A DNA stretch of 64,000 bases from Urechis unicinctus (taxonomy: Eukaryota > Annelida > Polychaeta > Xenopneusta > Urechidae), in NCBI GenBank assembly GCA_034190875.2, contig CM067346.1, positions 12,904,435 through 12,968,434 of the forward strand. The letters are read 5' to 3'. The number at the start of each line of letters is the position of its first letter. Position 1 is the stretch's first letter. The notes under the pieces are model-generated. The model saw nothing but the letters and a program-made list of their open reading frames with translations, was not told the DNA's origin and ran no database searches. The position numbers were made by a program, and so were the translations under genes. Of the stretch, positions 24,188 through 64,000 are shown one piece after another.

Positions 24188-24188
24188 G

Positions 24189-24258
<70 letters not shown>

Positions 24259-26359: not shown

Positions 26360-27280
26360 TGTAATGATGCCTATTTTTGAGTTTTTGTACAACTGGTTTG
26401 TGCTTTACATTACCTGATTCATGTAAGGGTTACACGCAAGTACAGGAATTCAGCTTGAGCCATGCTAGAAAACCAGCCACCATCTCTAATTTATTGTCAT
26501 CATGTTCAAACTTAGTATGGCAGTCGTTGTAGATGTGTTTCTGATGAGAAAGACTGTTTGGGAATTTCTTGTTGGATGGACGATATACAGCAGTCCTGTT
26601 TCGCCCGGTACCTTAAGATTGGAGCAGCATCGAATGAGAGTTATTATGAAGAAAAAAAATATTTTTTGTCTTTTGTCTTGCGTCAACATATTTGTTCTTG
26701 AACGGCCTCAGAATAGGTTGCGTCATGGTATATTGGATGAAGTTAATTCATATATTTTACCTAAGAGTAGCAAAATCTTGAGTATATCTGCGCGAGAAAT
26801 ATGATGCGTAAGATCCTTTAATTTATATTTAGCAGACATCTAAAGGATATGAGTATCAAATGTCGTGTCAGTATGATATTGTGTCAGGTTTCTCGGACGT
26901 AATGATTATAGGAAAGGTGCATTTGTCCACCGCGAATTTTAAAATGTATCTTGGCAGACAAATATTATGTCGACGTGAGAGAAATTTCATCAGATGGAAT
27001 CTTACTTGGAACAGTTGGTACTCAACACATTGTTTAGGTCAACACTGCTGTGATAATGTACTTAAACGCAAGGTGTTTCCCCGATGGCGTGCCAGGCATT
27101 ATGTTCAAAATAGCCGACTTTGTCGCCCTACAGCACTGTCGCATATATGACTTATTAGCTTGGAACAGCGTGCTTCACATACGCTGTAATAGAAGAATAG
27201 GCATTGGCGACAGAACCCACATTACAGCGCCCTGTTGCAAGTAACCGGTGAGCTTTATTTGCACAGCCCACAAGGGGCTT
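26360..27280. repeat. Diverged module P, copy 1 (pairs with 50,630-51,330)
   Basis: Ordered landmarks shared with the second copy are actggtttgtg, gacctgaat-like, gacaaatatt / gacaattatt, tgtgagag / cgtgagag, atggaatcttac, tgtcgccct, gaagaata(g/a)gcatt and tacagc(g/a)ccct. The orientation is the same. Frames open in one copy are broken in the other. Confidence 0.6.
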
Positions 27281-28059
27281 ATCTGTAGATGCTTTTATTT
27301 GTATATATAAGGTCGCAACGCACTTTATCCGTAGGCATTGCAATGGGCGCTTTGTACGGCCAAATTTGATGCGTGAGTATTGTTGAACGACCACATTTTC
27401 AGCAGAACGGCACCCGACCCCAAACCCGGTAAGTACAACTATTCCCAATAAATATCAATTATTAATAACAATTTGCGTCGGTTAAGCCTGACAAGGAAGC
27501 CGACTTCTAGTTTGATAAACTGACTGCAATATTCTCAGATTGCTTAGATTTGCGGTGTTTATCAACAATTTTACTAGATATCACGGAAGGGCGGCTGTTT
27601 TAAAGGGCGTACTTTTTCCTGTTCACATTATACTATGTGAAAAGATGTAGGCATATGTTAGGTCAATTCGGCGAAGAATATGTAGTTGGCTTGTTTGCGA
27701 CTGCTTGGTGCTATCGAATCAACAACATAAGGAATATTATGGAATACAGGCCAATGTCTATTAGAAAAGGACCACCGAAGTTGCTCTTGATATCCGTGCT
27801 TAATTTCACCGTGTCGGAATTTTGCTCCCAGATAGGAAACTCATTTAATGTTTAAACTTATGCAGTAAAAGAAAATTCCGCAGTCTCTCCTACGACGTTC
27901 GTAATGCTTAATTACCAGAGTAAAAGAGTGCATAATTTTACGAAAACGACCACGCTCTGAACAAGCGTTCTTTAAGCCTGGAGTTTGGAGTACACTCTGT
28001 TTTTGTCAAACCCACTCTCCTGTGTGCACTCGCGGCTAAAAAGAACCAAACGTTAGATT
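27281..28059. other. No feature recognised
   Basis: No supported gene or repeat. Confidence 0.4.
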
Positions 28060-29470
28060 CCTTCGTGAAATTAATTAGTTTTGCATGTAGCAAACATAAG
28101 TTGACTAATTAATGGACCTCACATGCACCTGCAGTCGCACGCAATGCTTTGCTGTGGTTCATTTTTGTAACATACAATCGTTTCAAACTTCATTCTGGTC
28201 TAAAGGATAAGTGTTTGTCTAATAATTGGCAAACACGTGTCATTTTAGTAGAGGTGGGCCAGTTATCTCGAATTCCCTAGCGTACACTTGATACAGGTAC
28301 TGTCAGAATCACACTGTTGAGGGAAGCAATCATATAAGCGGTAAGCGTTGCATGAATGCATATCCGTCAGTTACTATAAGACAATTTGAACCACAATATG
28401 CGTTCGTGTCTGTATAACTAATATATTGATTTGCAAAGCGTCAATATCTGCAAGTGAACGGATGGCGACAATTATGTTAACTCGACTGTAACTGTAACTA
28501 TGATATACCGACTTCCTCTTATCACCCCATGTTATTGCCTTGCGGAAATTGGGCGCAAGCGATAGTACACGCAACATGATTGCCTATGCGCCGAACCCGT
28601 TCCCATTTTATATTTGAAACAATTTTCATTAGATATTTGATCAAATTCTGATAAGGACATTTTATGCCAGTTTCTGTGCAGTCTTCAATATTTTTTACAG
28701 TAAAATGGTGTCGTAGATATCACACGCATAATCCAGTCAGTGTATACATTCGTGATGATAAGGCTTCCGTGATGTTGATTGCCAGTGCATGTTCACCCTG
28801 CGTTGTAGCGTTATGTGAGCCACATGAATATCCAAACTGTTACCACAACATTTAACCTCACATAATAAAATTTATGATAAATGGTGCTGGTGATGGAAAC
28901 TGTGTTCATGATGACCGAGTATCATTGTTAGTCAGGGGCGTACAGAATATAGACAATTGAAGATGTCTCAAGTTAATTTTTCAAACTCACAAGTCTCCCC
29001 TCAATGCCTGCATAGCAAGATAACGCTGGACATTATTTCTTCATGACCCTGGATTACTAAAACACGCTGGTCTAAATATCGTTGGTTATTTCTATACCCT
29101 CATCATCACTTATTTTCTGAAATATAGCATCAGTCCCTAAGTGCCGAAATGGCAGATATCAAATATTAACCATTCTAGATACTTACAAATATTGGTTGAC
29201 AGATTCAAGCTGCATTCAGTCTTTTTGAGGGGCGATGCATAATAAATAGAATGGCTTGATGAAACGATATGTGACCGCGTTTGCGTAGCATAAATTATAT
29301 TAAGCATACAAATGCAGATATTAATGGTGTTAAATGATCTCCTGCTGTTGTTATATATGCAGCACATGGGGGCTCTAAATGTACCCCTAGCACTTATGCA
29401 ATGTTTTCTATGGGTCTGTTAAGGTCTCTGATTATCATGATATAATGATCGGTAAACCTTGTACTTAATC
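28060..29470. repeat. Diverged repeat module R2/R3, copy 3
   Basis: Best partner is 52,040-54,300. Landmarks are gcggtaag(c/t)gttgcatgaatgca, gatttgcaaag(c/t)gtcaatatctgca, aattatgttaactcg, aggcttccgt, atttaacctcacataat, gttatatatgca and ctattgg/ctatgggtctg. Part also matches 10.0-11.9 kb. Confidence 0.65.
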
Positions 29471-29647
29471 CCACGAAGCTTCAGTAAACATCCGATAGCG
29501 GCGAAGTAGTGCCACATCAACAGCAACATGGATGTTAGAAAATTGGCACACTTCTATCGAAATGACGACGAACAAGTTGACACATTTTCAAAATGGATAT
29601 TTACTTAAAATATTTTGGAACATTCGCTGCAAATGCATCGCATAATA

Positions 29648-29670
29648 CATGCACACATTGCATACATACA

Positions 29671-29701
<31 letters not shown>

Positions 29702-30059
29702 CACATACATACATACATACATACATATACATCATACATATACATATACACATACATACATACATACATACATACATACATACATACATACATACATACA
29801 TACATACATACATACATACATACATACATACATACATACATACATACATACATACATACATACATACATACATACATACATACATACATACATACATACA
29901 GACCATCACACATACATACATACATACATACATACATACATCACACATACATACATACATACACATACATACATACATACATACATACATACATACATAC
30001 AGCATATTTACCTACATACATACATTTACATACCCATGCAATCATACATACATACATTG
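29648..30059. repeat. (CATA)n tetranucleotide array
   Basis: A long, near-pure run of catacata units with cacacata and gaccatca interruptions. Thinner catacata clusters continue to about 30,385. All three plus frames and two minus frames stay open because the unit contains no stop in them, so the frames are not genes. Confidence 0.97.
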
Positions 30060-30705
30060 ATCACGTTTCAATGAATCTTTACACCCACTCAATCATACAC
30101 AGCATGCACACCATTTTCACACCACTCGCCATACATTCATTCATATGGAACATACATGACATGCAGCCACATTAGACGTGCACATACATACATGCCAAAT
30201 TAAATACACGCCAATACATACATATTTTCATTTTGCTGCTATGTGAATACATACATACGTGATACATTACATTCAGAAATATAAACATAGAATGTGTTAC
30301 AATGATTACCTCGTAAGTGCAGCATACATAGCAACATACAAACCATACATCAAATACATCTACATCTACATACATACAAACATACATTAATACGAACACG
30401 GTAGACATACATGTCCTATAATACAGTCTGCAGATGCATACCCCGCGTATATCCTCACCAATAGGTCACATATATAGCAAGAGCATACATCACAACGCTG
30501 ATACTATAAGCATACATAAGCAACTAACTCAACAAAGAAAAGCTACCAACATATGTAGTGTTATGTAATCATATTTCACTACACAAGGCTCTTGTGAAGT
30601 TTTCCATGAATAAAATCTCATTACTTCCACCCTTTATGAGGCTTCTTTGGTATAAGGCGTACTCTTGACACCAACGACGAAAACAGCCGACTCGTCGTTG
30701 CTCCC

Positions 30706-31918
30706 CTATATTTGTTTGTATGTCTCTGAATAAGGAATTTTGGACGAATGAGTCAAGCTTGTGTTATTTAGATTGGTGGATGGGTTGTACGTTACAGTGG
30801 TCATCGCTCGTTGTCCCGGATGACTGTGAATGCAAGTCATGTCTGATGGTCTATCGACACAGTGCTTATAGTTCTGGAGCGTGTCCATGTGTATCGTATT
30901 GGGACGTGGTTGACGGGGACGGAATAGGGCCACAAGTTGTTGGCGGAACTTCTCACCCGTGGCACAGTAGAGGAAGAAGTTCATCGAGTGGTTGAGGTAC
31001 ATGAGTAGTTCTGTAATGGAACGAATCATCTTCAGCAAAGCTATTCTTTCCTCTTGTCGAAGTTTACCTATAAGAGCATTCGCAATGAGCATACTATTCA
31101 TAGGTAAGGTAGTGATGAGAAAGGCGAAGGAAATCGTGAGAAGCATGATGGTCACTTTCATGCTACCTTCCGATGTGGAGCTACTCTGACTTCGCTGAGT
31201 GGATGTTCCAGCACGGCGTGAACCGTTGGTCGCCCTGCGCACATCCGCTCTCTCTCCATATAAAAGCTTACGATTGCGCTTCGACGAAATCACTTGCTGA
31301 ATGATGAGACCATTGAATATAGATATAATCACCACTGGGATGTACGAGCATATAAACGCGTCCACCCATGGCCAAATATCCATCACTACCTCTTCAAAGC
31401 CAAGGCCAGCTTCGCATTTCGTGATTGTTATGCCGGCTAAATTGTAACTTTTAACTTCCGTCGTCCAGAGGAAGTGCATGTTAATGCAGAGGAGGAAGAA
31501 AAGCTATGCGATTGTCGCACATCGTCGGCGCATGTAACGGCCAGCAAATGGCGAGATATCGCTCCACTGTGACAGCAATAATAAGCCAAACTGAATAGTC
31601 ACTGACCGTAAACGCCAGTACAGTTATGAAGCCACAGCTCCATCCGTACTTCTGCTGAAGATCGTAACCAGTGAGCTCCCTCACCCAAATTCTCAATAAT
31701 CCAAGGTACAAAACCAACGTATCTGTAATAGACAGGGCGGCCAAGTACCTGTAAGTTGACTGCTTATTCATTGGCTTACGTGTGAGTATGACAAAAGAGA
31801 GTATGTTACCCACAGTACCGAAGAATAGTATAATGGGTGGGATATAGAGTAACAAGTTCTTGTGGATGCGGTACTCTGAGTACACCCAAAGGGACTCCTC
31901 GTAAATCGGAATATGCAT
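30706..31918 (-). pseudogene. Peptide-type rhodopsin-family GPCR with one frameshifting deletion
   Basis: Reading on the minus strand from ATG at 31,918, the first frame carries TM1 (with FGTVGNILSF), TM2 (LSITDTLVLY, conserved Asp), the conserved Cys before TM3 (WSCGF), TM3, and ERYLAICWP (DRY variant). It runs out at a TAA near 31,481. A second frame (about 31,500 to the stop at 30,706) resumes in TM4 (LLCINMHFLW). It has the extracellular-loop Cys (ITKCEAG), TM5 with a Pro, a basic/Ser-rich third loop, TM6 (ITTLPM), TM7 with NHSMNFFLYC (NPxxY variant) and helix 8 (GEKFRQQL). Compared with the 55.6-kb copy, 23 bp are missing at the frame break. It is otherwise complete, with no intron. Family: GPR139-like/FMRFamide-receptor-like; ligand unknown. 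A sequencing error is possible but unlikely for 23 bases. Confidence 0.9.
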
Positions 31919-31966
31919 TGTGTCGCTACGATTACATTGACCAAGTTCAGTAATCAAACAATAGAA

Positions 31967-32110
31967 TCATTCTCCGTTTAAAGTCTGCCAAGTCTCTGTC
32001 AATTCTTGTAATATAGTAGCTTTCTTTTCTGTTCCGAGTGCCCGGACGTACTGCAGAATTTCCCCCTCTGCAAAATTAATCGGATAGCCGTTCTCCTCTG
32101 CGAGTAGAAG
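31967..32110 (-). CDS. Coding-like island upstream of the GPCR (possible exon)
   Basis: The minus strand, after an acceptor-like CAG at 32,111-32,113, reads 47 codons to a TGA. It begins LLLAEENGYPINFAEGEILQ, continues YVRALGTEKKATILQELTET and ends WQTLNGE. The copy at about 56,125-56,250 keeps the same frame with conservative changes (EILQ..RAL.TEK.A..LQEL.ETWQTL), despite a short gap near its start. The TGA is in the same frame as, and 51 bp upstream of, the receptor ATG. It could be the end of an upstream gene, an upstream reading frame in the receptor leader, or a decayed exon. No family recognised. Confidence 0.4.
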   Translation of the reverse strand, partial: LLLAEENGYPINFAEGEILQYVRALGTEKKATILQELTETWQTLNGE

Positions 32111-32199
32111 CTGAAGGTATCTATCATGCACAGAAGACAAACAAGAGTGTCAATCAGCAAGCCAATAAAAAATACAGGATAAGATATCTACGGCTTTTC

Positions 32200-32430
32200 T
32201 GAAGCATAAACATAAATTTCGGCGCTTGATGAGACTTCCTACAAGTCACGAACGCGATAAATTCCCGTCCAATATTTCACAATCATCCGTCAGAAGGACA
32301 ACGGAGGCATGCTCTCACGGAGTGCAAACCAGTCACAAGAATGTATTTTGCAAAATCGCGTATGCCATTCCGATAGCCTTCCATTCTGTGTGTGATCGGA
32401 CAGTAACCCGTTGACAATGTAGGTTAAGTC
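32200..32430 (-). other. Second conserved island upstream of the GPCR
   Basis: The sequence is very similar to about 56,300-56,520, including ggaatggcatacgcgatttt, gactggttt and gggaatttatc on the minus strand. Copy B has an 84-codon open frame here, while copy A is interrupted. Coding status is unresolved. Confidence 0.35.
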
Positions 32431-33432
32431 TGAATAAGTAAACCTTGCCTGGCTACAAATATGTACAGAAATATATAAATGCATTAATTACTAGTATTTG
32501 TGGAAATAACAACAACGATGGAAATGGCTTATTCTATCCTGACACTAAACGCTAACAGGCTACAAAGCACACCTGCGCTTGCCATTTAAAGGATTTTACT
32601 GAGATCATATTGGGCAAGAACGTTTCTCAAAATGCTCCTAATGGAGAAAGTCAGTCATACGTCGCTGTTTTCTCTGTGCAGTCTACATCTGACATGAAAG
32701 TACTGCCATGCGGGTATCAAGCTCGACGCTGGTTTCGCTGCTCTATGGTTGATAATTACTGAAAAGGGCAGGTTTTATTCTACCAAGACGCGTTATGTCT
32801 TCAGAGGTTCCACGTGGGAGCGAGTTGCCAAGCTGAGCTGCGTAAGGTGGTAATCAATGGCAGATTTCATGATCAACACCCTTTCATTAGCATATTGTTT
32901 GGTCTAAGACAAAGCTTGCACGCAACCATCGATATATTAACTAAAAACAGCAGGTGTTTAAGTGTTCTCATCATGAATTGGTAGGCTGTTGGACAATCAA
33001 ACAGTGATTAAGCACAATATTGATTTATGCATCCCACTACACTGACAAATGACCATCGTCACTTAAGCTGACACATTGTTGCCTCATTCTGCTGAAATCG
33101 CCTTTTGATTCGGTTTTCTGGCTGAAGCAGTAGGATGTGTTTAGATTAACGATACAAAGGGTAGACTTATGCACCGAAGGTAAGTCTGCAAAAACTGTAT
33201 GTAGTGTCTGTATGATGTGTGGCAATCAGAGCGATTCTCTCCTTCTGTCTCACTCTCTCTTATTCTCCCCAACCAAATGTTCCTATTCTCACTTACTTGT
33301 ATGTCGCTATTGCTCTTGGACAGTATTTTAGTTTATCTTTACTTTTTTCTATATTACCTTCACCGTAATATACAACGAAACGATAGAAGAAATACGTTAG
33401 TAACTATTCTTACCTGTAAGATTGCCTTAGTA

Positions 33433-33723
33433 CTAGTCTGCTGGTACCAAACGAGTTCGTGATACACACTCAAAATAATCAAATATCCTCGCATATTTCT
33501 CAAGATTCAAGTCGTTTCCTTGCATGTTATTGCTTGAAAAACTCCAATCACGAATCGTCCGCCCATACACGAATTTCCTCTCCTGAATAGGCTTCCATGA
33601 TAAAGTCGTGAGGTTTTGCCCTTTGCACACGTCAGTAGTACCTTCCGCGTCGATGCTGTGATGAACGTCTGCAACTAGCTGGCAACTCGAAAGCGCGCTG
33701 CCCTGCTGCAGCAGATTGCCCAC
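33433..33723 (-). CDS. Coding-like open frame in the receptor block (no family recognised)
   Basis: This is a minus-strand frame of about 96 codons. The part reading SALSSCQLVADVHHSIDAEG, then TTDVCKGQNLTTLSWKPI, is kept in frame in the copy at about 57,660-57,790 (SKLSSCQL.AD.HHGI.TEGTT..CKGQNLTT.SWKPI), with mostly conservative replacements. Copy B has a stop just before this stretch and loses homology after it. Two cysteines and an NLT glycosylation sequon would suit a secreted segment, but there is no signal peptide. The initiator is uncertain; it could be an exon. Function unknown. Confidence 0.35.
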   Translation of the reverse strand: MGNLLQQGSALSSCQLVADVHHSIDAEGTTDVCKGQNLTTLSWKPIQERKFVYGRTIRDWSFSSNNMQGNDLNLEKYARIFDYFECVSRTRLVPAD

Positions 33724-34029
33724 GCAACTGTGGCTGCGCCTCCCACCAACCTAACCGCTATCGATCTCACGGCATAGTTGGTGTTGATGAATGGATCCTC
33801 ATAGACTAGCGCACATGTTAAATTCCCACATATGATTGGGGAATTCTAGCAATGATTATTTGCTAATTTATCAAACAATAGTCATCTAGATTTGTCGGCA
33901 AACGGGGTACTGATTTGAAAATAGCAGTGACGCCGTAATTAGCAATAACGCAGTTAGTTAACGACTCCATGGCATATTCATTGAAAGAGCATCAATCTAA
34001 TTAGGCCAGAAAGCATTGACACTCCCTCA

Positions 34030-34725
34030 CCATGGACCACAGTGTGGCTTTTGTCCTATTCGTCGCACGCAGCAACGTCAAAAGATTTAACGCCGCTCTT
34101 AGTCATCCTAGCATCTTATATACTCAGCTACATAACATTTATCTGGAATTTGATCAAAATGCTGGTGGCAATGGATAGCCAACCACTTGATGAGGTCATG
34201 AGATCATCAGATCGAACCGACTATAAACAATTCTAAGGCAACCTACGCCGGAAACTTACGCCAGGCTTTGCAAACCGCTCGCCAGATGTTGATGGACTTC
34301 CATCCATCACAGTTTATTGATCTGTTGCAAGTTAGAGCGAATGGTCGTCGTTCATAGTACAATCATGACCGTCTCAGACTTATTCAACTAATCAGGGCTT
34401 AGCGGATGTCAGCGTGCGTCCTCTTATGACTGGTAGCAGACAAGTGGCGAATTACAAAGGTTTTAAAGGTAATTGCGCTCAACTATAGCTTTATTGGCTG
34501 AGGTAGCATTCAGGGTGTTTGATGAACTACGTTGTTGCAGAAAACTTTCCTTGGCGAATGTAATGCGACATCTAAACTGTTATGAGCGCTTGTATCAAAC
34601 AGCATCAACTATGGGAATAGTTAATAATGAGGCACTCAATGAATTTGACAAGGTTTTTATGCAACTTTGTCACTTGCAAATACGACCTTCATATTCTCGG
34701 TATCATAAGTTCCGATAGATAATCG
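34030..34725 (+). pseudogene. Plus-strand coding-like blocks, probably a decayed gene
   Basis: On the plus strand the sequence reads MDHSVAFVLFVARSNVKRFN, then AALSHPSILYTQLHNIYLEF and DQNAGGNG, then a stop. In another frame it then reads ATYAGNLRQALQTARQMLMD and FHPSQFIDLLQV. From 34,473 an 81-codon frame contains ALLAEVAFRVFDEL and STMGIVNNEALNEFDKVFMQ. The copy at 58,325-59,000 preserves scattered parts (NAA.SHPSILY.Q, EFDQNAGGN, QMLIDF..PQ, STLGIVNN) in shifted frames with stops. I recognise no family. The pattern suggests an old gene, host or mobile, transcribed divergently from the GPCR. Confidence 0.35.
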
Positions 34726-34735
34726 ATTAGCTATG

Positions 34736-36732
34736 CTGATCGGTCGATGTTACTATGTCAATTGATATTGAATATCATGACATGTAAGAATATAGGTATA
34801 TCACATACAGAATCGAATATTGGATGAAAATTAAAATGCCGAGGTTTCGATGTAGAATGGCTTGTTGACCATTCCACGTCGGGATCTTCTTTAGAACACT
34901 GCAAATGCCGTTATATGCATCCCCCCACATTAGTGTGTATTAGTGGTAGATGACGGATGAGATCACTTAGCATTCGTCATCACCACGACAAGGCGGCATG
35001 GATCGCCTCGAACATAACCTTCTCCGAAGTACACATTATTCGCTCATTGCACTTACTGATAATATTCGTCGTATTAGTGCTATGAACGATCTAAGAAAAG
35101 AAATGCACCTTGGTTAGTGATATTGCAAAGTATAACGTGTTGATACGTGCTGATATAATCATTGCTTCTTAGGTACTTTCCCGGAAAAGATGCTTCATTC
35201 ACATATTCCACACTGACGCGACCGTCTTGAGTGCGTGTTGTGAGGCCATGTATAGGCTACATGTATTTCAAGCATCCACTTCACAACAAGCTTTCACATG
35301 AAGATGTTAAAGCTTTCAAGAGGCGAGCCCATTACGACTCGGAACAGCTCTTCAATGCGGGTGCTCAGAGTACAGCAGATTCAATATTATTCTCGAATAA
35401 TTCCAGAAGCAGAAGCTCCGGGATTAAATTGTAAAATCCGACTCCTGGCAGTCACTTCCTAACAATTCATTCCGTGTACATTTGACATCTGAGTTGGCGT
35501 GTTACAAAACACCGCAATCTAGACAAATGTACGATGAGAAAGCCCCCAAGCAGGTCACCGAGTCGGTTTCGAGCGAGGCATTGAATGTCCTGCAAAATGC
35601 ATCTAGGATCGGAGCGTGTGCCTGTCGTTGCTCGTGTGGTGGATCGAATCATCCCAATCAAGCTTTCAATTCACCTGTTGTTGCAAGCACACCTGGTGGT
35701 TATCTTTATGTCACATCACTAAAGACGTTCAACTTTGCCATCAGATCAAAATTAGGCCCCCGCTCTATGCACTGCGTGGCACGAAACATGGCAAGCCATA
35801 GCATGCCATATGATAAGCCTAACTTTAAATATTTGAGCATAATAGATAACATCACATTCGCGTAGCTGATTATCTAAGCAGCAACAGCGCAGCCGTTTGT
35901 GAATCGCGTCATTTGGCGCTAATATGCAATTACATTCCTCGGAAGCAGATAATATAGAACACTTTATAGGTCTCATGGATCAATTACTATATATATTGTT
36001 ATATCATCTCAATTTATATTGCTTGTCGGTCACGATTTGTACAACAGAGTAGGGGCGGATCCTGACAAACAGCAAAGGAGCTAATCTGTCTGCCAGTGGT
36101 CATTGTTTGATAACGTCAGATGGCTGGGCATCCTAACTACGAGGGGCATGGGTATTATGCTGTTGCGGCCAGAGAATCTACGCAGATAGAACATGTCTGA
36201 TTGGTTTATCGACGTTATCACATATGTTTGGTGAGGTTATGATTAATTATTTTAGAGAAAGTGAATTACGGCCGACATACAGTTCAAGGCAGAAATAAAG
36301 TGTATACATTCATGTGGCTTCAATCGCACTAACAATAAAAAGCCACGATAGACTCGGTGCTGCAATGTATAACTTGCCCGCAATATTCTCGAGGGAAGAT
36401 TAAACAGTCACGGGAGTTGTTGGTGTGAAATTCCCTTCCAATGGCAGATCCTTGGCTCGGAATTCTCGATGGAGACTCACGGGTAATTGATTTCACTTAA
36501 CCTCACCAAAACCCTTAAATGCGCTTGCTTACACTATTGAAAAAAGAATTCCACATTTATGTTGCCCAGTTACTTACCACACAAGGAGAGCTTAATTGCA
36601 AGTCATCGTATAAAAGCAGTCCTTCGTAACTCGCCTGATATTAAAACCTTTAATCCTTTGAAGGACCTGTAGTATACTCCTATGTTACTTTGATTATATC
36701 AATGCCAGATTAGCACCTAAACTAGCTCCGGT
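34736..36732. other. Copy-A-specific DNA, no gene supported
   Basis: I found no counterpart in the second receptor unit. A 127-codon plus frame at 35,482-35,865 with a CACRCSCGG run is within chance expectation and is not called. Confidence 0.4.
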
Positions 36733-36763
36733 CGTAACGGTAACACGAATTTATACCGTTACG
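36733..36763. other. Perfect 10-bp inverted repeat
   Basis: cgtaacggta (36,733-36,742) and taccgttacg (36,754-36,763) flank an 11-base loop. Function unknown. Confidence 0.7.
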
Positions 36764-37000
36764 AGGCGATCATTATACGCGCGTCGCCGTGTTCGCGTTT
36801 GGGTTGAAGGGCTACTCTGCGCAACTAGAGAATAACATATATCAAGAGCCTCAACAAAAAATAGACTTTGCGCACCAAAAAACTTACCCCCACTCGCCGG
36901 TATTCTTCAATAAATGCCATCGATATTCGTTTCTGAGAAAATTGCGATACGATGTCTGCCATTTTGGAAAATATTAATTCCCGCGATTTCCCGCATTGCC

Positions 37001-37221
37001 TTAGCATCCCAAGGGGGGGCACTTACCCTAACTCGGATAGGGGTGTGCCGCGGGACCTCGAAAACCCGTACCCGTTGTACAAGTTGAGAATGGGAAAAAG
37101 TATACTCCGTCGTACAAGGTATTATGCGAATGTATAACCCGAGAGGCCGAAAAAACATGCCCCTTCGCGCGGCACATTTATACTATATCTAAACACTTAA
37201 GTGCCCCCCCCCCCTTAGCAT
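37001..37221. mobile_element. 207-bp inverted-repeat element with 7-bp target duplication (MITE-like)
   Basis: TTAGCAT occurs at 37,001-37,007 and 37,215-37,221. Between the copies, the left end carries ggggggcactta and the right end taagtgcccccc, an inverted pair. A second nested inverted pair, gtgccgcg and cgcggcac, lies further in. The interior is richer in G+C than its surroundings and has no coding capacity. A non-autonomous DNA transposon is the best fit; the superfamily is not assigned. Confidence 0.6.
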
Positions 37222-40859: not shown

Positions 40860-41040
40860 CACTCCCTCGTGTCTTGTTCCCTGAATCTCTATGTGGTGAC
40901 CCTGACGATTGGCTGATTGTGCTGATATCGTTGTCTTTATGAAGCATTTCTTCCTTGCACTAGCAACATTGTAATGTGTTACCTTGAACTTGATACTCAT
41001 GTACACATGATATTCAAGAAGTGTAAGCGAGTGTGTTATC

Positions 41041-41078
41041 GGGGGTGGGGAGGGTGGGGAGGGTAGGGGGGGGGGGGT
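41041..41078 (+). other. G-tract cluster with G-quadruplex potential
   Basis: Five or more runs of three to eleven Gs separated by single T, A or TA bases. The paired position near 60,510-60,540 keeps only a loose G-rich remnant. Confidence 0.7.
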
Positions 41079-48476: not shown

Positions 48477-48499
48477 GTTAAGCCTCATAAATTCACCTA

Positions 48500-52039: not shown

Positions 52040-54570
52040 AACGATAGTGAACAGTTCGTTGCATTGCGTTCCTCCAAATAATATGATTCATCTTTGTGAT
52101 ATTCCATCCGCTCAAAAACAGCAATAATCTTGTGTCATTTGCTTATTAGCAGACTCTCTCTGCTTTAAAATTTAATCTGCTTTATAGAAAATGTGTTTGT
52201 CAAATGATTGGCGAGCAAGCGTCATTGTTATAATGGCATGTTATCATCTCATATTCCCGAGCGACCTTATAATAAATGTCCTGTAGAAATCACACTTCAC
52301 ATGGAATCTGCCACCAAACGAGGATATGAGCGGTAAGTGTTGCATGAATGCATGTCCATCAGTTATTGAAAGACGTAGGGCGCATCAAATTAAGGTATTA
52401 AACAGAGAAATGGTTCTGCCAGAACTAACATAAACGCATCTTCTTTCCACAAATTACCGATTAACCGTGTCATGGGTCTACCACAGCAAGCAAGTAAAGT
52501 TTAATTAGATGCCATCACGTCACAGATATTTTGCACAACACTAGGGGATCAATAATTCGACAGTACCCCTGACCTCTGGACGACGTAGAGAGGCTGACAA
52601 AGAACAGCCATTGACTTATTTATTGACCCGAATGCTTCAAGAAACAAAGACAGTGTAAAATTGTATCGGTTTTATCGTGCAGAGATGTACCCGCAATCTC
52701 TATTTTGAAATATTTCATATTGTTATTGTAACAAATGCTTCTGTTATTCATTAATAACCGCATTCACCTGAAAACAAAAATGAGTGGACTTTAAATAGAA
52801 CCATCATATGCATTCGGGTATATGTAACTTATATAATGATTTGCAAAGTGTCAATATCTGCACGTGAACGATATGTATGTCCAAATGGAAGGCGGCAATT
52901 ATGTTAACTCGATTGTAACTAATATAAGGATATACTGACGTCATATATTTAATGCGACAACTTGGCGAAAGTGATGGTACACACCTGCAACATGAATCAT
53001 GATTGCCAATAAGCCATTCGTGGGAACATTTGCCCTGTGGATGACTGTAAGAAATTTCATCAGTCCCGACCTCTTCGATATCATTTACATCTGAAACGTT
53101 TCATGCAAGTTATCTGCGCCGTCTTTAATTATTTTTACATTAGTATTGTGCCTTAAATATCACACCTGCAATCCCATCAGGGCATGTATGCTTGATGTTG
53201 AGGCTTCCGTTCTAAATGATTGCTAGTGCATGCCCAGCTAGTTTTGCGGAGATATGGGAGCAATATAAATAATCTTTACTGCTACCAACACATTTAACCT
53301 CACATAATGATTGATGATTAATGGCTTACCTCCTAGTGAGACTATATTTATCAGCTTGTTTAATATATTAAGGTATGGTCGAAAGTTAATTTGGGCTCTG
53401 GAAGCAAGTAACTTTCAATGTTTTGCACTGTGCTGCGGCATTGATGCTGGTGACGGCAACATAATAACCATTCGCTAGTGACGCGCGGTAGATCTATGTA
53501 TGTGACAACACACTACCGTTTTTAGTGAGTGGCATGCAGATTACACACAATTGTAGATTCCCTGCTAGCTGTTAATATCGTCGTGCTTTTATTCAACATA
53601 GTGCTAGCATTTTTTCATAGATCCAACATTACACAAACATAAAGCGATCATTGCAACATACCCAATATGTAAGATCATTCAATCGCACGATTAATTCCTT
53701 ACGCATTTATATAATCAATAGAGCAAATATACCTGGTTATCTAAACCATTACATCTTAAAACTGACCTGCGCGATGGCCAGCACTGGATACACGTTACAA
53801 ACATAGGACTAAATGTAGATCGCCAAAACCAGGGGTATTTAATTGAATCAATTTCCCCATTACAATAAAAGCTGGAATATATTTCCTCGCGGTCCTGAAT
53901 CCACACTCACGCTGGTCTACACATTGTTGTTTTCCTTCATTCCCTTTATAAGAACTAATCTATTGATAAAGAGCGTCCGATCTAAGTGGCAGATATCAGA
54001 CATTAGCAATTGTACTTTGTTGAAAGAGTCAAGCTTCATCCTATTTCTATTAGGGTGACGTACTACAAATATAATGGATTGACGGAACTATCTGAGACCT
54101 TACATGTGAAAAATAAACAGCATAAGATATAACAAACGGGGATATTAATCGTGTGGCGTGTTCTATTGACGTCTCATGTTTTTTGTTATATATGCAACAC
54201 ATAGGGGTTCTGAATGTGTCACTTGCACTTGTACAACATTTTCTATTGGTCTGCTAATGCTCTGATTAATGTGATATAATATTCATAGACTTGAGCAAAC
54301 AAAGTCATCAAACTTTGTCCATAATGTCTTTGACCAAAGCCTGCAGATATATTAAGGTTCATACAGCCAAGACACATAAAAGCGACTGTCTAATTGTGTT
54401 TGCCTGGATAAAAGGGATAACAAAAACGAACGTTTGGAGAGTAGAGGTCTGTTCTTAGTCACCTGGGACAGTCTTGGGATTTTAAGAATGCGGTGTCGCA
54501 GTGAATTTGTGATGCATTGTCGTGTAAGGATTCGCTTAAGACCCCCATTTAAGATAGTGTGCACCTGCCA
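52040..54570. repeat. Diverged repeat module R2/R3, copy 4
   Basis: This copy matches 28,060-29,470 over most of its length and 10,030-12,670 at both ends. Landmarks include gctcaaaaa, tttatagaaaatgtgtttgt, gttgcatgaatgcatgtcca and catcttctttccac. Confidence 0.65.
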
Positions 54571-54678
54571 CCGGGATTAAGTCCCACTTCCAATAATTAT
54601 AGGATATTATATTTTTTCCACTGGAAATATTAAAGTCACTTTTGGGTATTTAGGCTGAGAATCAACAGAGAAACACCA

Positions 54679-54999
54679 CTAACCTGCATTTCTTTGCTTT
54701 AGTACTGCAATGTTCCAATCACATCCATCCTTCATTTTTTTAAACGAGACTGTGAGCGGATTCGTCTGTGAGTGTCCAAGCCTCGTTTTAGCCAATTGGC
54801 TTTCGTAGCGGTTTACATGTAGTAATGTGGATGCCGTATCGGTCTGGGATACTATTGCTGCAATATCTAAGCAATGGAAATTTGTTGCTCGACGCCCCGT
54901 CGCATCGAAATGCAGACTATCCTTAACCGGAAGATGTGCTGCGTCGATAATTTGTACTCTGATAGTATCGTTAATCGATGGTTTTCTGCCTCTTAACAT
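54679..54999 (-). CDS. Candidate first exon of an unknown protein (weak)
   Basis: The minus-strand ATG at 54,999 opens 106 codons, beginning MLRGRKPSINDTIRVQIIDA and continuing AHLPVKDSLHFDATGRRATN. The frame stops right after AGAAATGCAG/GTTAGT, where GCAG|GTTAGT would serve as a splice donor at about 54,682, so the stop could be intronic. The sequence is mostly hydrophilic, with no membrane segment or known domain. It lies just outside the receptor block, and the matching place in unit A is occupied by the CATA array, so no conservation test is available. The length is within chance expectation. Confidence 0.2.
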   Translation of the reverse strand: MLRGRKPSINDTIRVQIIDAAHLPVKDSLHFDATGRRATNFHCLDIAAIVSQTDTASTLLHVNRYESQLAKTRLGHSQTNPLTVSFKKMKDGCDWNIAVLKQRNAG

Positions 55000-55589
55000 T
55001 TAACATAGTGCAGGACTGTTTTGTTTTGTTCTTTTACTAGGTGACTGGTCGGTACAAATTGCTATTTAACTACCGGAGCTGGCGTTACAAGCCGGTACAT
55101 CTATTTATTTCGAGACAAGCACATTCGACAGATAATGCTCATTCATATATGTTAATAAATGACTATACTTGATGATTTGTGGACCTTGTGAGGCACCCAT
55201 ACGTGAATCCATTACAGACCAAAGGTTCTATTTCAAATGGCCAAGATTTAGACACCAATTGTGACAAATATTGTGTTTTTGATTGATATAGAAATAAACC
55301 TTAACGTTATACATTAATTCCGAGACATGAACAAAGAATTTATAACAATTATTACTTGCGTAAGTGCTGAATGAGAAAATAATCGAAACATTATCCACCA
55401 AATTCGTCCTACATCTACATAAGATTAAATTGGACATTAATACGAACGCGTTAGACAAGTATATACTATAATACAGTCTCCAGATGCATTCCACACGTAT
55501 ATCTATGAGGTAGAAGTCTCTACAAGAGGATGTGCTCAGAATAAAACTTAACCAAGGTAAGCTATCAGCATAGAAAGTGGAATGTTTGC

Positions 55590-56076
55590 AAATAAATGGT
55601 AACGTTTAACACCCGTTGCCCATAGGAAGTGCATGTAAATACAGAGGAGCAGGAAAAGTATGCCAAGCATGACCCGGAAGGCTTTGCGATTGTTGGATAT
55701 GGCCGGCTCTCGTAACGGCCAGCAAACAGCGATATATCGCTCCACTGTGACAGCAATAATAAGCCAAACTGAATAGTCACTGACCGTACACGCCAGTACA
55801 ATTATAAGGCTTCAGCTTCATCAGTACTTCTGCTGAGGATCGTATCCAGTGAGCTCCCTCACCCAAATTCTCAGTAATCCAATATATAAAACCAATGGAT
55901 CTGTTATAGACAGGGCAGCCTGTAAATCGACTGCTTATTACGTCGCTTGCGTATGAGTATGAAAACAGAGAGTATGTGACCCACAGTACCGAAAAAGAGT
56001 ATTATCGGGGGATATAGAAAGCATATTCGTGTGGATGCGGTACTCTGAGTACTCCCAGAGTAACCTGGATATGCAT
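55590..56076 (-). pseudogene. Decayed second copy of the GPCR, 3' half missing
   Basis: The minus strand from ATG at 56,076 matches the 31.9-kb receptor through TM1-TM4 in broken frames. An 11-bp loss follows the start. About 7 bp are lost in TM2 just before the conserved ALSITD segment. Before TM3, KYGWSCGF has become KY, two stops, S, stop, removing the conserved Cys. The stretch from TM3 to TM4 is still readable (MERYIAVCWPLREP, then MLGILFLLLCIYMHFLWATG). Homology stops after VKRYHL: TM5-TM7 and the tail, about 830 bp in copy A, are deleted. It keeps the 23 bp that copy A has lost. Confidence 0.9.
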
Positions 56077-56124
56077 CGTGTCGTTAAGATGACATTGACC
56101 AAGTTCATATAGAAAACAGTGGAA

Positions 56125-56250
56125 CTGTTCTTCGCTTTAGAGTCTGCCACGTCTCTTTCAGTTCTTGTAATAGAGAAGCTTGCTTTTCTGTACTGAGTGC
56201 CCGGCCGTTCTGCAGAATTTCCAGTTCCCTCTGTGAGAAGAAGCCGAGGT
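56125..56250 (-). pseudogene. Copy B of the coding-like island upstream of the GPCR
   Basis: Reads EILQNGRALSTEKQASLLQE, then LKETWQTL, on the minus strand, matching 31,967-32,110. The reading does not end at the same stop as copy A. Confidence 0.35.
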
Positions 56251-59060
56251 AACCTATCACGCACTAAAAACCAGAGTGTCAATCGACAAGACGATACGAA
56301 TTGCAAGGTAAGATATCGCCACTTTTCTGAGGCATAAGATAAATTTCGCCATCTGGTGAGAATTCCTTTAAGTTACGAAAGTGATAAATTCCCATCCAAT
56401 ACTTCACGATCAAAAACACGAAGCATGTTCTCGTGGAGTTCAAACCAGTCATCTGAATATAATTTTCAAAATCGCGTATGCCATTCCGATTGTCGTCCAG
56501 TCTGTGTCTGATGGGCTGGTTAACCAGTGACAATGCAGGTGAGGTTTTAATAAGTAAATGTTGCTTCTCTACACATATGCATAGAAATATAGGAATGCAT
56601 TATTTACTTGTATCCAAAGAAATAACAGCAACGACGGAAATTGCTTAATCTATCCTGACACTAAATGCAATAGGCTGCATAGCACAAGCGCGCTCGTCGT
56701 CAAAGTGGTGTCAGGGAGCTTTAAGCGCTCAAGGAGACAATTGTGGTCCATCGCCGATGTTTAATCTCTGAAGGACAGCAATTTTAAGGATTTTACAGAG
56801 GTCACATTCGGAAAGAATGTTCCACAAAATACTCCACACGGAGAAAGACAGTCATGCGTCGCTGTTTTCTCCGAGACACTTTTCTTGTCACGTGACTGCG
56901 GTTCGTTTATATACCCACTGTTTACTCTGCTAGCCTGTGGCAGACAATTACTGAAGAGGACAGGTTAAATACCTTATTTTTAGACCCCGAAGACACGTCA
57001 TGTATACCGAGGTTCCGCGTGCGAGGGAGTTGCTGGGCTGACCCACGTAAGATTTTAATCAATGGCGGGTTTCCCGATCGACACTCTTTTCATTATCATA
57101 TTGTTTGGTCTTAGACAAAGCCTTTCAGAGCTATCGTCATGATTTGGTTGACTGTTGGAAAATCAAACAGCGAATAAGCGGAATATTGGTTTATGCATCC
57201 CACTAAACTGGCATATGACCATCGTGATAATAAAACTGACTCATTGTTGCCCCATTCTGCTGAAATCGTTTTCTGGCAAAAGCACTTGGCTGTGTTTAGA
57301 TTAACTATTCAAAGGGATCAGTTATGAACCGACGGTGAGTCCGCAATAAACGCATGCTGTGTTTATAGTATGTGAAGCACTGTTATCGGCTCTCAGGTCG
57401 ATTCTCCTCTTCAGCCTCACTCTCTCTTATTCTCCCTAACCGACTGTTTCTTCACCTTCTATCCTCGTCTGTAGCGATCGCTCTCTGATAGTCTAGTTGT
57501 TTGACTTTACCTCCCCTTCTTCTATATTCCTTTCACAATCTAGATAGTTTCGCATTATCCAACGAATACGTTGGTGAATGTTATTACCTGTAAGGATTGC
57601 TATTAGTGCTCGGCTGCTGCTAATATAAATCCAGATTCAAGTCGTTTCAGTGCATGTGATTTGCTCTCATAAATAGGCTTCCATGAGATAGTCGTAAGGT
57701 TTTGCCCCTTACACCCCTGAGTCGTGCCTTCTGTGTTGATGCCGTGGTGATTGTCTGCAGCTAGCTGGCAACTCGAAAGCTTGCTGCCTTACTGAGGCAG
57801 AATGCACGCGCTACTGTGGCTACCCTGCCCTCCAGCTTAACCGCTATTGATCTCCCAGCATTGTTGGCGTTCATGCATAGATTTTCATAGACTTATGTAC
57901 ATGCCAAAATCCCATATATGCTCAGGAAAATTAGCGATGAATATTTTCTTGCCAATCAAAAAATATTCATGTACCCCGTTTTATTCCTCTAGATTTGTCT
58001 GCAAACAAGGTACTGACTGGAAAATAGCAGTGACGCCTTTATTGGAGATTGCCAAGATTCTATCCATTGTGTTTTTGACGACTAAGTGCATATAAATCAT
58101 AAAGTAACAATCGAAGGCGAGAGATGATTGATGCTGCCAACTAACTTGTCCTACTTATTACACAACTAATCGTCCACGTCCCGGTGCCAATCCCTTATAG
58201 CGAGGCACTGGTTTGATCGAAATAAGAAACTCTGCACTATAATACAGTTACTAAACGTCTCCAAGGCCCAATGTCTTGAAGGAGTCTAAATCTAATTAGG
58301 CTAGGAAGCCGTAACACTCCAAAGCCATGGATCACTGAGTGGCTACCGTCCTATTCATTGCACGCAGCAACGGCGAACGATGGAACGCCGCTCCTAGTCA
58401 CCCTAGCATCTTATACGCACAGCCATAAAGCATTCGTCCGGAATTTGATCAGAATGCAGGTGGCAATGTTTAAAGGCAACCACTTAGCAGGATGAGGTGT
58501 CAGAAGTCATCAGATCAAACGGACCAAAAACCAATTCTAAGGCAATCGAGGAGTGAAAATTACGCCATGCTTTCAAAACAGCTTGCCTTAGGTGACCAAA
58601 TGTTGATAGACTTCTGTCAACCACAGTATTTGGATTTGTGGCAAGTTTAAACGTATGGTCGCCTTTTATAGTAGACTCTCGGCCGTCACAGACTTATTTG
58701 ACTAATCAGGGTTTAACAGATGTCTGCTTCCGTCTTCAAATGACTGCACACGGTAGCACACAGGCGGCGAATTACAAAGGTAATTGCGCTCAACTATGGT
58801 TTATTGGCTGACATAGCATTCAGGTTTTTTTTATGAACAACGTTGTTGCAGAAATTTCCCTTGATATGTGTAATAAGACATACAAACTGAAGTGAGCGCC
58901 TGTATCAAACATGAATCAACCTTGGGAATAGTTAACAATAAGACGGTGGCAATCAGTTCAGTTGTGAAGGTTATTTTTATGAAACGCTGCCCTTAACATA
59001 TATAACCTCCATATTCTCGGTATCATAACTTCCTGTAAGTAATCGATTAGCTAAGAATAT

Positions 59061-60056
59061 TTTGTGCTCTGTTATGCGATATCGTGAAGTAAATCGGATT
59101 GATGTGCCATGCAAATGTGGGAATTGAATGTGTTCTGATACCTGTTGACGTGACACTCCAATATTGGGCAAAAACCACCGCGCATGGTTACTGCTGTGTG
59201 GTATTAAAGAGACCGATCAACGATGTCTGGCACCTGTAGTTAGAACACATTACCCGCCCCAGTTAAACGATTGAATTACCATTAACTAAATGACAAATCC
59301 GGTGTGTACCTAAGCGACAACATAATCTACTACAACATGAGGCGTTTTCGGGCCAACAATATTATATTTGGTTGAATCATGGGCGCAGCTCTGTAATATG
59401 CATCCATTTGCAGTGTCTCATATGGTTTGATTAGATGTCTGCTCTCATTAGTACGCACGTGGCGCCGTTAATATACACGAATTGAGCAATGTGTGGCAGA
59501 CACCTCTGTCACTTAGTATTTCCATTGTGCGGATTAGTACTGATATATGGGTGTGATCTATCCACCACATTAGCCTGGTGCGTCCGCTGCTGCAGTTTCC
59601 TGGTCATGTGTATCAACGCACGGTCAATCATTGAAATAGGTGACGACAAAAGTCGGTCATTTCGTTTCGCCAGACGAGGACAACTATGATTGCCAGTTAA
59701 ATGGCTGAATCAATCATCACGACGATATTATTTTGTACTCTTGACGATACTATGAACATCGGTTGGAGGGACTCATGTAATCAGATGAACGTAGGTGTTT
59801 AACCTAGGCAAACACCGGTTATTGCACTTCTCACAGAAAGGAAATAGACCGATGGTGCATTGTTAAACGACTGCTTATTTGCACAGAAGCTGATCATACA
59901 TAGAGGTCGCCGTTCGCGTTTCACGTCCTTAGATCAATTACTACGCAATACCAGTTACGAGAATCACGTCAGTGGATTATATTCCCAGCAAGGCGAATTA
60001 TCGTACAAACTGTATGGTGCAGTGTATAATTATAAACTACGCGAGACTTCCATCAT
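59061..60056. other. No feature recognised
   Basis: Short interval between the receptor block and module Q in unit B. The equivalent interval in unit A is about 6 kb. Confidence 0.4.
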
Positions 60057-60326
<270 letters not shown>

Positions 60327-63300
60327 TATTGTGCCTAGTTCCCTGCATCTCTATGTGGTGACCCAGACGATCGCTTGATTGCATGGAGATCGTTGTCTCT
60401 CATTAGGCTTTTTCCCTCATTCCTATCTCACTAGCAACATTGTCGTGTATTTTCCGAATACCTTTCCCCTGAATTTGATATTTGCGTAAACGTGATATTC
60501 AGGCCGTGCGTGTGGGTGTGGTATTGGGGCCGGTAGGGTGGCGCCGTCGCCAATGGCGAAGCAATATTAATACCATGCAGCACTCACTAGCAAAGACAGG
60601 TGCTAGTCATTATATGGTATATAGAGTTACGCTTTCTCCTCCCTGGGCTCCTAGTTCAGCTGGGGAGAGTCGGTGAAAAGGCGATGCGACAGTGAATCTA
60701 ATCAGCTACAGATTGCTGAAAAGATTGAGAGAAGGGGATAGGAGCGAGTGGGGGGGATGGAATCGTGTGTTAGTTAAGCCTCAGTGCCCTTTCCAGAAAA
60801 TGTAAAAAATCCAGTCTACGAGCAAGGATGACTCAAAAGAGTCTATTTCCGTTTCCCAGTTGATCAGTGCTGCCGGTGAAGTTCGGAATGCCTACATTAC
60901 TATAAATATTTCGTCAAGGGCGACATCTCTTTAGCTGGCGTCTGAGCGGGCATTATATAGTGACCAACCATCCTGATAAAAGCTTAATTGCACTCAAATT
61001 CAGGCTTCCAGCCTGCTCGATGTGCCTTAGAAAGCATTATGTTAAGTAGTACACCATCACGAGTTGACTATAACATTAAAAGCTTTGCGGCTATATCATA
61101 AAATTCAAGCGTCACAGCCAACGTTCCGTGATTCTCAAACAATCGACGTTGTAACAATATATAACTGACCACGGGACAAAGAACGATTCGTCCTTGATTA
61201 AGAAGAAAAAAACATGTAAGGTGTCTCGACTCTGTGGAACACGAATAGTTTTCATTTCCGCTTTTTGAAGCCGGTGTATCGTTTGATGGTGGAAGCAACA
61301 CCGAGTTATTGGCTTTGGTTGGGGGTAAGAAAGTCCGCATTGTGGTGCAAATATTTTGTTTCCCGACCTCTCTCCCTTGTACCGTGTGTCACGACTGCCT
61401 CCTAATTCATCCTCACCATGATACCAAGTTAGTATCGAGCCAATCGCAATTACATGGAAGAGATCAAAAGAAAACATCAACCCAATCAGCGAACTCAGTA
61501 AGTAGGATACATTAGGCAATCATGGATACTTAACTATGATAACTGCCCAAGCATGTTTACAATACGTCATTTCCATCTGACCGAAGAAGATGGACATAAA
61601 AGGCCCTTGGACCAAAAGTTGAATCATGCACTACTTTCAGACGCAGGCTTCTTACGGAATTAAGCCCATCGAAGGCCTGTTGCGTCCTTGCGGTGTATAT
61701 TTAATCGCCAACGTTTTGAACCTAGCACCAAAAAGCTTTACCGCGTGCGCAAGGATTCTTTATTTGTTGATAATTTTTAGAGTGCTTGGCTCCGTAGGAC
61801 TTTATTTGCAAGTATGTCTTATCGCATAATAACGTATGTTGTCGGTGCATGTAATAAAAGGTGATTTCGTTAGAGTTTTTGTTGTTTTTTGTTCTCCATA
61901 AAATAAGTATGATATACTAAAACCATTGGAGGATGCTTTGAAAAATAAAAACAAGCACGGAGTGCACAATATATTTATTACAGCTACTAGGTAGCAAATG
62001 GCCACAAACCGCTCGTAATGCATTGAATATGGAGCTGGTATTTAGATTACTAAGCTAAATGTAACGTGCGTATTGACATGTCACAAAGATATATTTGCAA
62101 CAAAGGAGAGAAGATGCTGCAAATTGCGCCAAGTGCCGGGTTGTCCCAAACTGTTTGTGCAAAAGAAGTAAGGCACCACAAATGTGGTATATCCATATGT
62201 TGATTCTCTAAATGACGAGAGAATTCGCCCGCAACAAATGATAGAACACGGTAGCTACATTGATAGTTTACATTGGCGTCGTCTTTCTTGGTGATTGAAG
62301 TAGAATGGGAAAATATCGACAATGCTGCATCGTATAAAAAAGAGTTCATCGCAATCTAATCATTGAGTTTCATCGTGCTCCGAAAGGTATATCTTTGGGA
62401 TTCACAGACAGTTGTGATTATATACAGCCGCTCTTACAAGCTGAAATAACCATGTACCAGCGACAGTGGCCTTTGGCTGAAAACACAGTCTAAAACGATT
62501 GCCCATTGTCGAGAAATCGAAATCCGTCACAGAAAATTAGCGATATGGTTTGCATTATAACTGTTACAAAGGAAGTCATTATATGTTCTCACTGCATTGT
62601 ACCATGCAGGCATTCGATCTTTAATAACCAAAGGTGCTTGGAATGATTACGCTTGTGTGTGTTAATGCGGTGATTAAACGTATCTGACCGCCCAAAAACG
62701 TCGTTCATTATATTCATCGACGTATACACTCAACAGCAACGTAAAAGCACCAGTTGAATCGTTAACGATGTGTTACGAAGCAGAAACTCTTACTTTCATT
62801 TACCCATCCTGTCAGGATTTTGTCAAAGAAGACTCCTCCTGTCACCTTGTAATTCATTCTCATCCATCATCGTGGCGATATCATCTCGATGTTGGAAGTG
62901 ACATTCAACCCATTACCATTGCCTTGTAAGTTCAGCATAGCAAACTTGTCTTGAAAGGCTTCTTTCTGAATGTATAAAACAGGAAGCTAAGACGACGACT
63001 ACGTGCACCGTGGATACTTGGCTTTTGATTGAGGAATGCCTACTCAAGGAAGACGCATCAGATGTAGGCCTGTTCTCACTCTAGGCCCTCATGCGCTGTA
63101 TCAAGTATCCAAACCTGTATACGTCCCGCAGTTAAAGGCTAGAAAGCCTTGTCATGATCCCGCTGACGTAGTTTCAACTAACATACGTCAATTTCTGGGG
63201 TATTGTGCAAGCAAGTACAACAAGTGCCTATGGCTCGAGTTTGTTCTATCACGATTACACGCACCGATTATATTCATTTGTTTATCATTGCATCTCAATC

Positions 63301-64000
63301 AATCAAAAGTATCACATCAATCATGATTCGAATAATTATCATGTCTGCCTGATAAAATAGTTCAATCAACTTAATCTTCTTATCACTTCCAAGACGGTTG
63401 CTGTGTACAACCTTAGCCGCTCCGTTTGAGAGTTTTTTTAAAAAGCTAGTAGACAGTGACATCATGTGAGCTTCTACGCAATTATCTAGCATCAAATATT
63501 ATTATCTATGAATTGAGGCTCTCAATAGCCATTAGAAAGGCGACAAATTAAGAACAATACAACACATATCATCGACAGGGTAGTGCGCTAATGGTATGCT
63601 GTACTTGTTCTGGGCCGACGTAATTATCACTGAATATGGTAAATTGTAAACTTAGTTGCGTGCATTAATGTAGCGCCTGGACATGTTTCTGATACTCACA
63701 AATTCTCAGCTGTGCTAGTTTACGAAAAAACATTGGCGATGTGCACAATAGAAAGTTAGTTTCGATGATGATAGTTGTGTAGACATTTTCTCCTTAACTC
63801 GGCTTCCATTTGAAACACATGTCCTGTCATAGTGGAACTGTATATAAAACTAGGTATGGAACTGCCTCATCAACAGTCACCACATACTCAATAGCTGGTA
63901 ATTATAGTAATCGATGGTGAGGAGATATAATAATAAATTACTACGCGCATGAAATACCTGTTCTTAAGATACTAAAGGGGCTACATTTTACATAGAAGAA
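60327..64000. repeat. Diverged modules Q, S and R1, copy B
   Basis: Partner of 40,860-46,000, same order and strand, ending in the start of R1 at about 63,890, where the window stops. The 135-codon minus frame at 61,112-61,519 lacks an ATG start and a partner in unit A and is not called. Confidence 0.65.

Follow-up and report, generated by a model that had tools for sequence, protein, structure and literature searches.

Tandem and then inverted duplication very probably shaped a birth-and-death cluster of class A receptor genes in Urechis unicinctus

The 64,000-nucleotide window of Urechis unicinctus DNA analysed here (C5:12904435-12968434, C5 being the window's chromosome) contains two diverged copies of a class A G protein-coupled receptor (GPCR) gene, each lying within a much longer repeated unit. 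The data presented below indicate that these units very probably belong to a birth-and-death receptor cluster that arose from tandem, then inverted, duplication. Window coordinates are used unless positions are given in Mb, with negative numbers for positions to its left. Genome searches were run against an assembly of 1.19 Gb in 926 contigs.

Self-comparison of the window, with simple repeats masked and a cut-off of E (expect value) <= 1e-3, detected 43 direct pairs (18.1 kb) and 9 inverted pairs (1.6 kb); comparison with its own reversed sequence gave a single match. At the same cut-off, unit A (26.2-50.4 kb) and unit B (50.4-70.6 kb) shared 17 direct matches and no inverted ones, covering 10,288 alignment columns. 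The longest increasing run comprised 14 of the 17 matches and was equalled by none of 100,000 permutations, and the three matches out of order corresponded to short internal repeats of module m4 and its neighbours. Twenty first-order Markov shuffles yielded one match in total and the reversed sequence yielded none; permutations and shuffles thus excluded chance similarity as the source of the module pairs. A neighbouring stretch used as a control (104-133.5 kb) produced one match with B and two with A, both of the latter, at 41.3-42.0 kb, falling within and next to a dispersed repeat.

Unit A (26240..50250, + strand) carries modules m0-m6 in order and a receptor copy on the - strand. Unit B (50519..64000, + strand) has the same order and orientation and runs past the window end to ~70.4 kb. 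The preliminary description of this sequence had proposed five module pairs in conserved order and orientation, with offsets falling from about 24 to 18 kb. All five were recovered, the direct matches pairing 26240-26420 with 50519-50694 (offset 24.3 kb), 26767-28382 with 50747-52374 (24.0 kb), 28383-28884 with 52793-53324 (24.4 kb), 29001-29450 with 53848-54284 (24.8 kb), 30151-30613 with 55198-55672 (25.0 kb), 31398-34735 with 55550-59055 (two matches, 24.2-24.3 kb), 40863-41290 with 60325-60757 (19.5 kb), 42714-42840 with 62011-62131 (19.3 kb) and 44205-46108 with 62600-64264 (two matches, 18.4-18.2 kb). A further pair, 41543-41718 and 61813-61990, was rejected as part of the duplication because it falls in a genome-wide dispersed repeat (~41326-41862).

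The two units differed by 27.2% substitutions over 9.0 kb, in agreement with the ancient age first proposed. Divergence was lowest in the receptor block (21.7%, against 30.2% elsewhere), which in A spans 31398..34735 (- strand) and consists of the first coding half and ~2.8 kb of upstream DNA. The receptor block of B extends over 55550..59882 (- strand), and its portion 56462-59882 matches a mirror copy, B', at 11.6% substitutions. Noncoding DNA was therefore duplicated along with the receptor, as had been suggested, in a segment of roughly 20-24 kb that is at odds with retroposition of the gene alone.

The drop in offset was traced to unit B. The distance from receptor block to module m3, measured only in the units of loci A, A', B, C, E and M (loci are described below), was 1.27 kb in B, compared with 6.13 kb in A, 6.83 kb in A' (the difference of two anchors), 5.11 kb in C, 6.47 kb in E and 6.27 kb in M. 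Because C, a member of B's own clade, keeps 5.11 kb, the difference reflects a deletion of ~4-5 kb in B, which accounts for the offset falling from 24 to 19 kb. The smaller step from 25.0 to 24.2 kb is consistent with the missing second half of the B receptor. Of the initial proposal, which combined insertions in A with deletions in B, the deletion in B stands as the main cause of the drop; insertions in A do not account for the main step.

The array had also been described as two units limited to the right half of the window, and neither limit held. Left of 26.36 kb, modules were found at 0.8-1.3, 9.0-9.5, 10.0-10.9, 11.5-11.9, 16.5-17.0 and 21.0-21.5 kb. In + orientation they follow one cyclic order: m1 (-1.2 to 1.2), m4b (2.6), m4/m4b (9.0-9.5), m1 (10.0-10.5), m2 (11.5-11.9), m5 (16.5-17.0) and m6 (21.0-21.5), then the full unit A and unit B, with an inverted m6 at 14.8-16.4 as the sole exception. 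These modules define two older units in which no receptor was detected: U1 (580..9991, + strand), with modules at 0.6-1.3, 2.2-2.7 and 9.0-9.9 kb, and U2 (9992..26200, + strand), with modules at 10.0-10.9, 11.5-11.9, 16.5-17.0 and 21.0-21.5 kb and the inverted piece at 14.8-16.4 kb. With A and B, this brings the count in the window to at least four units. A colinear copy of the 6.5-12.7 kb stretch was found at 14.486-14.493 Mb, 21.8 kb from receptor locus I; U2 and A are 21.2 kb apart.

Genome searches placed all of these sequences at one locus. With the receptor block of B as a query, 60 of 60 matches were on C5 at 12.749-14.640 Mb; the left-half query (6.5-12.7 kb) gave 59/59 matches on C5 at 12.796-14.633 Mb and the 52-kb module 18/18 on C5 within 12.749-14.640 Mb. 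Every candidate was scored for these three queries (16/16, 32/32 and all, respectively), and since the DNA search passes over very common words, absence elsewhere is not absolute. The genome-wide scatter named beforehand as the contrary outcome was not seen.

The 60 matches were grouped by hand into 14 receptor-block loci. Six form a near cluster, C (12.754 Mb, receptor on the + strand), D (12.771, +), B' (12.794, +), A' (12.817, +), A (12.936, -) and B (12.960, -). The other eight form a far cluster, E (13.993, +), F (14.067, +), G (14.232, +), H (14.270, +), I (14.513, -), J (14.531, -), K (14.587, -) and M (14.636, -). Spacings, also taken by hand from matching anchors, were ~20.6 kb (C-D), 21.2 kb (D-B'), 22.4 kb (B'-A') and 24.2 kb (A-B), so the expectation of more units in the flanks was borne out in the left arm. 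Regular spacing is restricted to the near cluster: I and J are 18.2 kb apart and the other far loci 37-165 kb.

A maximum-likelihood tree of the receptor block (3,415 columns, 14 copies) resolved two old clades, (((B,B')100,D)99,C)100 and a group made of (A,A')100 and the eight far copies (100). The mirror pairs E/M and H/J were also supported at 100, and one inner node of the far group was unsupported (13/53). A tree of the upstream DNA recovered the same clades at 96-100, with the far-group inner node at 77 and arranged differently. The closest receptor blocks among the loci were 92-98% identical. The two old clades give no support to the view that A and B are a pair produced by one exchange, as had been thought; A is nearer to A' and to the far cluster than to B.

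Comparison of the window with a 258-kb stretch around it showed that its strongest matches were inverted, not direct. The mirror-diagonal chain contained 37 blocks and 40,182 aligned bases, with 12.48% substitutions and 0/36 order violations. The right arm extends from ~-15.8 to 59.9 kb (window part 1..59882, + strand), with a further block at 70.2-70.5, and the left arm from ~-34.0 to -113.4 kb, with a further block at -120.9. These colinear inverted arms around a spacer constitute a large palindrome, or inverted duplication. Without correction, divergence between direct copies is about double that between mirror copies (27.2% vs 12.5%). Because A pairs with A' and B with B' in the tree, the direct duplication is the older event.

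Divergence between the arms was uneven (chi-square 624, 36 degrees of freedom), ranging from 4.5% to 28.8% substitutions per block. The lowest value was found in block 8992..10221 (+ strand), 4.5% against an arm mean of 12.5%, which makes it a candidate gene-conversion tract. Conversion between arms would explain the heterogeneity, as would unequal constraint or more than one event, and some conversion may have taken place. At a mean of 12.5% substitutions the arms are not near identity overall and would be homogenised at most in patches.

Two further sequence families, S and T, lie between the receptor clusters at C5 12.88-14.41 Mb. Among 35 hand-picked S and T copies, 12 of 13 at 12.88-13.34 Mb were in + orientation and 14 of 14 at 13.50-13.93 Mb in - orientation; the remaining 8 lie beyond 13.50-13.93 Mb on mixed strands. 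This pattern suggests another mirror centre near 13.45 Mb, with the caveat that positions were chosen by hand and many shorter rows left out, including opposite-strand internal repeats of S. A coarse count of mirror sums gave no single sharp centre, the best bins holding 6, 6 and 5 pairs. Pieces of the S and T families also have a distant copy at C5 36.74-36.81 Mb.

Both receptor copies in the window are broken. Copy A (30709..31966, - strand) matches the Pfam family 7tm_1, its halves scoring 51 and 44 bits against a cut-off of 30.5. The halves lie in two frames, transmembrane segments (TM) 1-4 at 31484-31966 and TM5-7 at 30709-31503, and the gene is broken near 31.49 kb. Copy B (55551..56124, - strand) is a TM1-4 remnant with 5 stops, and its TM5-7 half was not found. 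In B' most of TM1-4 is gone, and what survives is part of TM5-6, interrupted by stops. B retains part of TM1-4 and B' part of TM5-6, indicating that the two decayed differently. In all, five copies are broken (A, B, B', F and M), F and M being interrupted. In their partly read surroundings, ~30 residues of the coding part were found for D and none for H.

Intact open frames of 408-411 codons, beginning at a shared ATG and ending in a stop, were present at seven of the 14 loci (A', C, E, G, I, J and K). All seven are single-exon as read from the DNA, their start and exon structure being predicted. In E, I, J and K the aligned frame has stops at residues 6-7, which precede the shared ATG. In these four copies a stop 9-10 codons upstream of that ATG closes the frame; it stays open for 63-75 codons upstream in C, F, G and M, with similar residues, and may be coding there. 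The ratio of nonsynonymous to synonymous substitution (dN/dS) was 0.14-0.31 in the 17 of 21 intact pairs with dS above 0.11 and 0.33-0.46 in the four closest pairs. Judged by these ratios, the seven intact frames are under purifying selection, and they are presumably expressed genes.

The solved chains most similar to TM1-4 were the GPR139, neuromedin U and thyrotropin-releasing hormone receptors (E from 1e-8), and those most similar to TM5-7 were angiotensin AT2 and CCR6 (E from 9e-6). The cluster combines many single-exon paralogues, intact and broken mixed, as is looked for in chemosensory clusters. The encoded protein may have a signalling role as a peptide or chemosensory receptor. A protein search with the TM1-4 half (best 150 of 556 candidates) found ten close copies on C5 (85-100% identity) and B at 60%, followed by nine rows on C1 and C153 (50-61%) and then by distant class A GPCRs. 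Related receptors at C1 0.94, 2.25, 8.3, 15.35, 15.40 and 17.8 Mb and on C153 showed 50-52% identity in the same search, and open frames of 510-519 residues were present in 5 of these 7 rows.

We propose the following history. A segment of ~20-24 kb, containing one intronless class A GPCR gene and noncoding DNA, would have been copied head to tail several times, giving rise to units C, D, B and A and to the receptor-less U2 and U1. Non-allelic homologous (unequal) exchange is the most likely copying step, and we consider it plausible. The initial suggestion of an 18-25 kb unequal exchange thus stands as regards a direct tandem duplication of ~20-24 kb, and the exchange itself falls short in that no junction was found. 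A segment of at least 75 kb with several units would later have been duplicated in inverted orientation, creating the mirror pairs A/A' and B/B'. The second cluster of eight loci, + copies followed by - copies, is related to the A type and is found on the same chromosome, 1.0-1.7 Mb beyond the first. Purifying selection kept some receptors intact, and others, including both window copies, decayed.

Several observations weigh against this reconstruction. No junction or flanking repeat could be fixed at the units after such divergence, and m6 lies between units. In the upstream tree A and A' differ by ~6% and B and B' by ~14%, and a single inverted event is therefore not the sole reading. The coding-only tree, poorly resolved overall (42-96), keeps E/M (88) and F/G (95), gives A/A' just 56 and separates B from B': B joins C (71), and B' groups with E/M (47). 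The coding remnants of these two mirror copies have only ~70 bases of overlap. The copy order of inverted arm, spacer, arm and spacer also fits a different route, in which arm and spacer together (~105 kb) were first duplicated directly in tandem and the left arm was inverted afterwards. Consistent with that route, the spacer S (-33.3 to -16.5) has a direct copy, S', at ~72-100 kb, with 15.7% substitutions over 6.3 kb, near the 12.5% between arms. S has many more family copies, so its pairing with S' may be coincidental: 95 rows were found among the matches listed (best 40 of 51 candidates), most on C5 at 12.88-14.21 Mb and the others at C5 36.7-36.8, C6 64.0 and C9 0.29 Mb. We regard this route as possible and somewhat unlikely.

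Uncollapsed alleles assembled in tandem or in mirror image could be invoked for the receptor-block pairs that are 95-98% identical. Such an artefact is very unlikely, as the substitutions between A and B (27%) and between the arms (12.5%, with many gaps) are too numerous for alleles, and the five broken receptors carry different defects. A single two-copy duplication, with nothing else in the window related, would produce the colinearity and offsets of A and B; it is contradicted by the left-half units, by the 14 loci and by the tree, which groups A with A' and the distant cluster, and we give it hardly any credence. Transposable elements or retroposition products landing nearby are an equally far-fetched source: the units do contain dispersed elements and the receptor frame has no introns, but kilobases of noncoding DNA were copied in order and the modules, identified repeats apart, matched this locus only in the three fully scored searches, whereas a 6.2-kb segment of C3 used as a single distant control gave a young element on many chromosomes.

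That C3 control showed no local cluster (best 40 of 2709 candidates), although, being dominated by the young element, it cannot exclude a weak local family. An intended local control of 6.2 kb, 50-60 kb right of the window, was itself a second multi-copy family of the same chromosome, with 65 rows, all on C5 (60 at 13.0-14.41 Mb and 5 near 36.81 Mb). Local multi-copy sequence therefore characterises the interval as a whole and is not peculiar to the receptor units. Beyond the proposed tandem and inverted history, we advance a more speculative and rather doubtful idea. The interval 12.75-14.64 Mb might be a self-propagating hub of mirror-image duplication, with arms at centres of ~12.88, 13.45 and 14.4 Mb, in which direct spacer repeats beside an arm could drive further exchange and inter-arm conversion could keep some receptors alive while others decay.

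Three dispersed elements were identified in the window. A recent high-copy element (~26458-26675, + strand), with copies 96-99% identical on many chromosomes, abuts the 26.4-kb module and lies outside the duplication. The repeat at ~41326-41862 (+ strand), inside the 40.9-kb module, and an element of ~410 bp at ~48058-48480, with copies mostly 87-91% identical and side by side in places, also occur on many chromosomes. For these queries the best 40 of 1000, 159 and 3724 candidates, respectively, were scored, and matches outside the locus fell in identified dispersed repeats. Because these three in-unit elements matched many chromosomes, the search method does find dispersed sequence. A retroelement integrase fragment (Integrase_H2C2 and rve; 3167-3922, - strand) is surrounded by a pair of 113-130 bp sequences at 2969-3081 and 4655-4767, 87-91% identical. 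Right of the window, a recent direct duplication (80866-96899) has copies 95-98% identical at offsets of 8.2 and 9.7 kb. An Rfam search of the window at gathering thresholds returned no matches.

The locus preserves direct (27%), mirror (12.5%) and close (receptor blocks 92-98% identical) layers of duplication side by side, with intact and broken genes. It lends itself to asking whether, away from the well-studied sex chromosomes, genes survive longer in mirror arms through conversion, and how a regular spacing of 20-25 kb originates in receptor clusters. No description of the locus was found in literature searched without the species name, which is weak evidence. Vertebrate olfactory and vomeronasal receptor clusters, in the part of the account drawn on here, consist of single-exon GPCRs in tandem arrays presumed to result from unequal crossover, with ~25 kb mean spacing, pseudogenes and gene conversion (PMC1995454). 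The present array resembles them in its single-exon GPCRs, tandem copies, similar spacing and pseudogenes; it differs in that its units lie within large mirror arms and its best solved chains are of peptide-receptor types, the likeness to olfactory receptors themselves being the shared 7tm_1 match alone. Candidate chemoreceptors of Aplysia and Biomphalaria are, in the extracts of the two reports used, mostly single-exon rhodopsin-type GPCRs, clustered and accompanied by pseudogenes, with Aplysia examples 9.0, 9.2 and 13.3 kb apart (PMC2700072, PMC5440852). By description they share with this array single-exon, clustered GPCRs and pseudogenes; mirror arms, present here, are not described in those extracts. 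Human Y palindromes, as partially covered in PMC6790999, have gene-bearing inverted arms of tens of kb, with tandem and inverted changes nearby. The present locus likewise has inverted, gene-bearing arms of tens of kb, but unlike the human palindromes its arms differ by 12.5% on average. Such a large mirror architecture is unusual for a birth-and-death receptor cluster.

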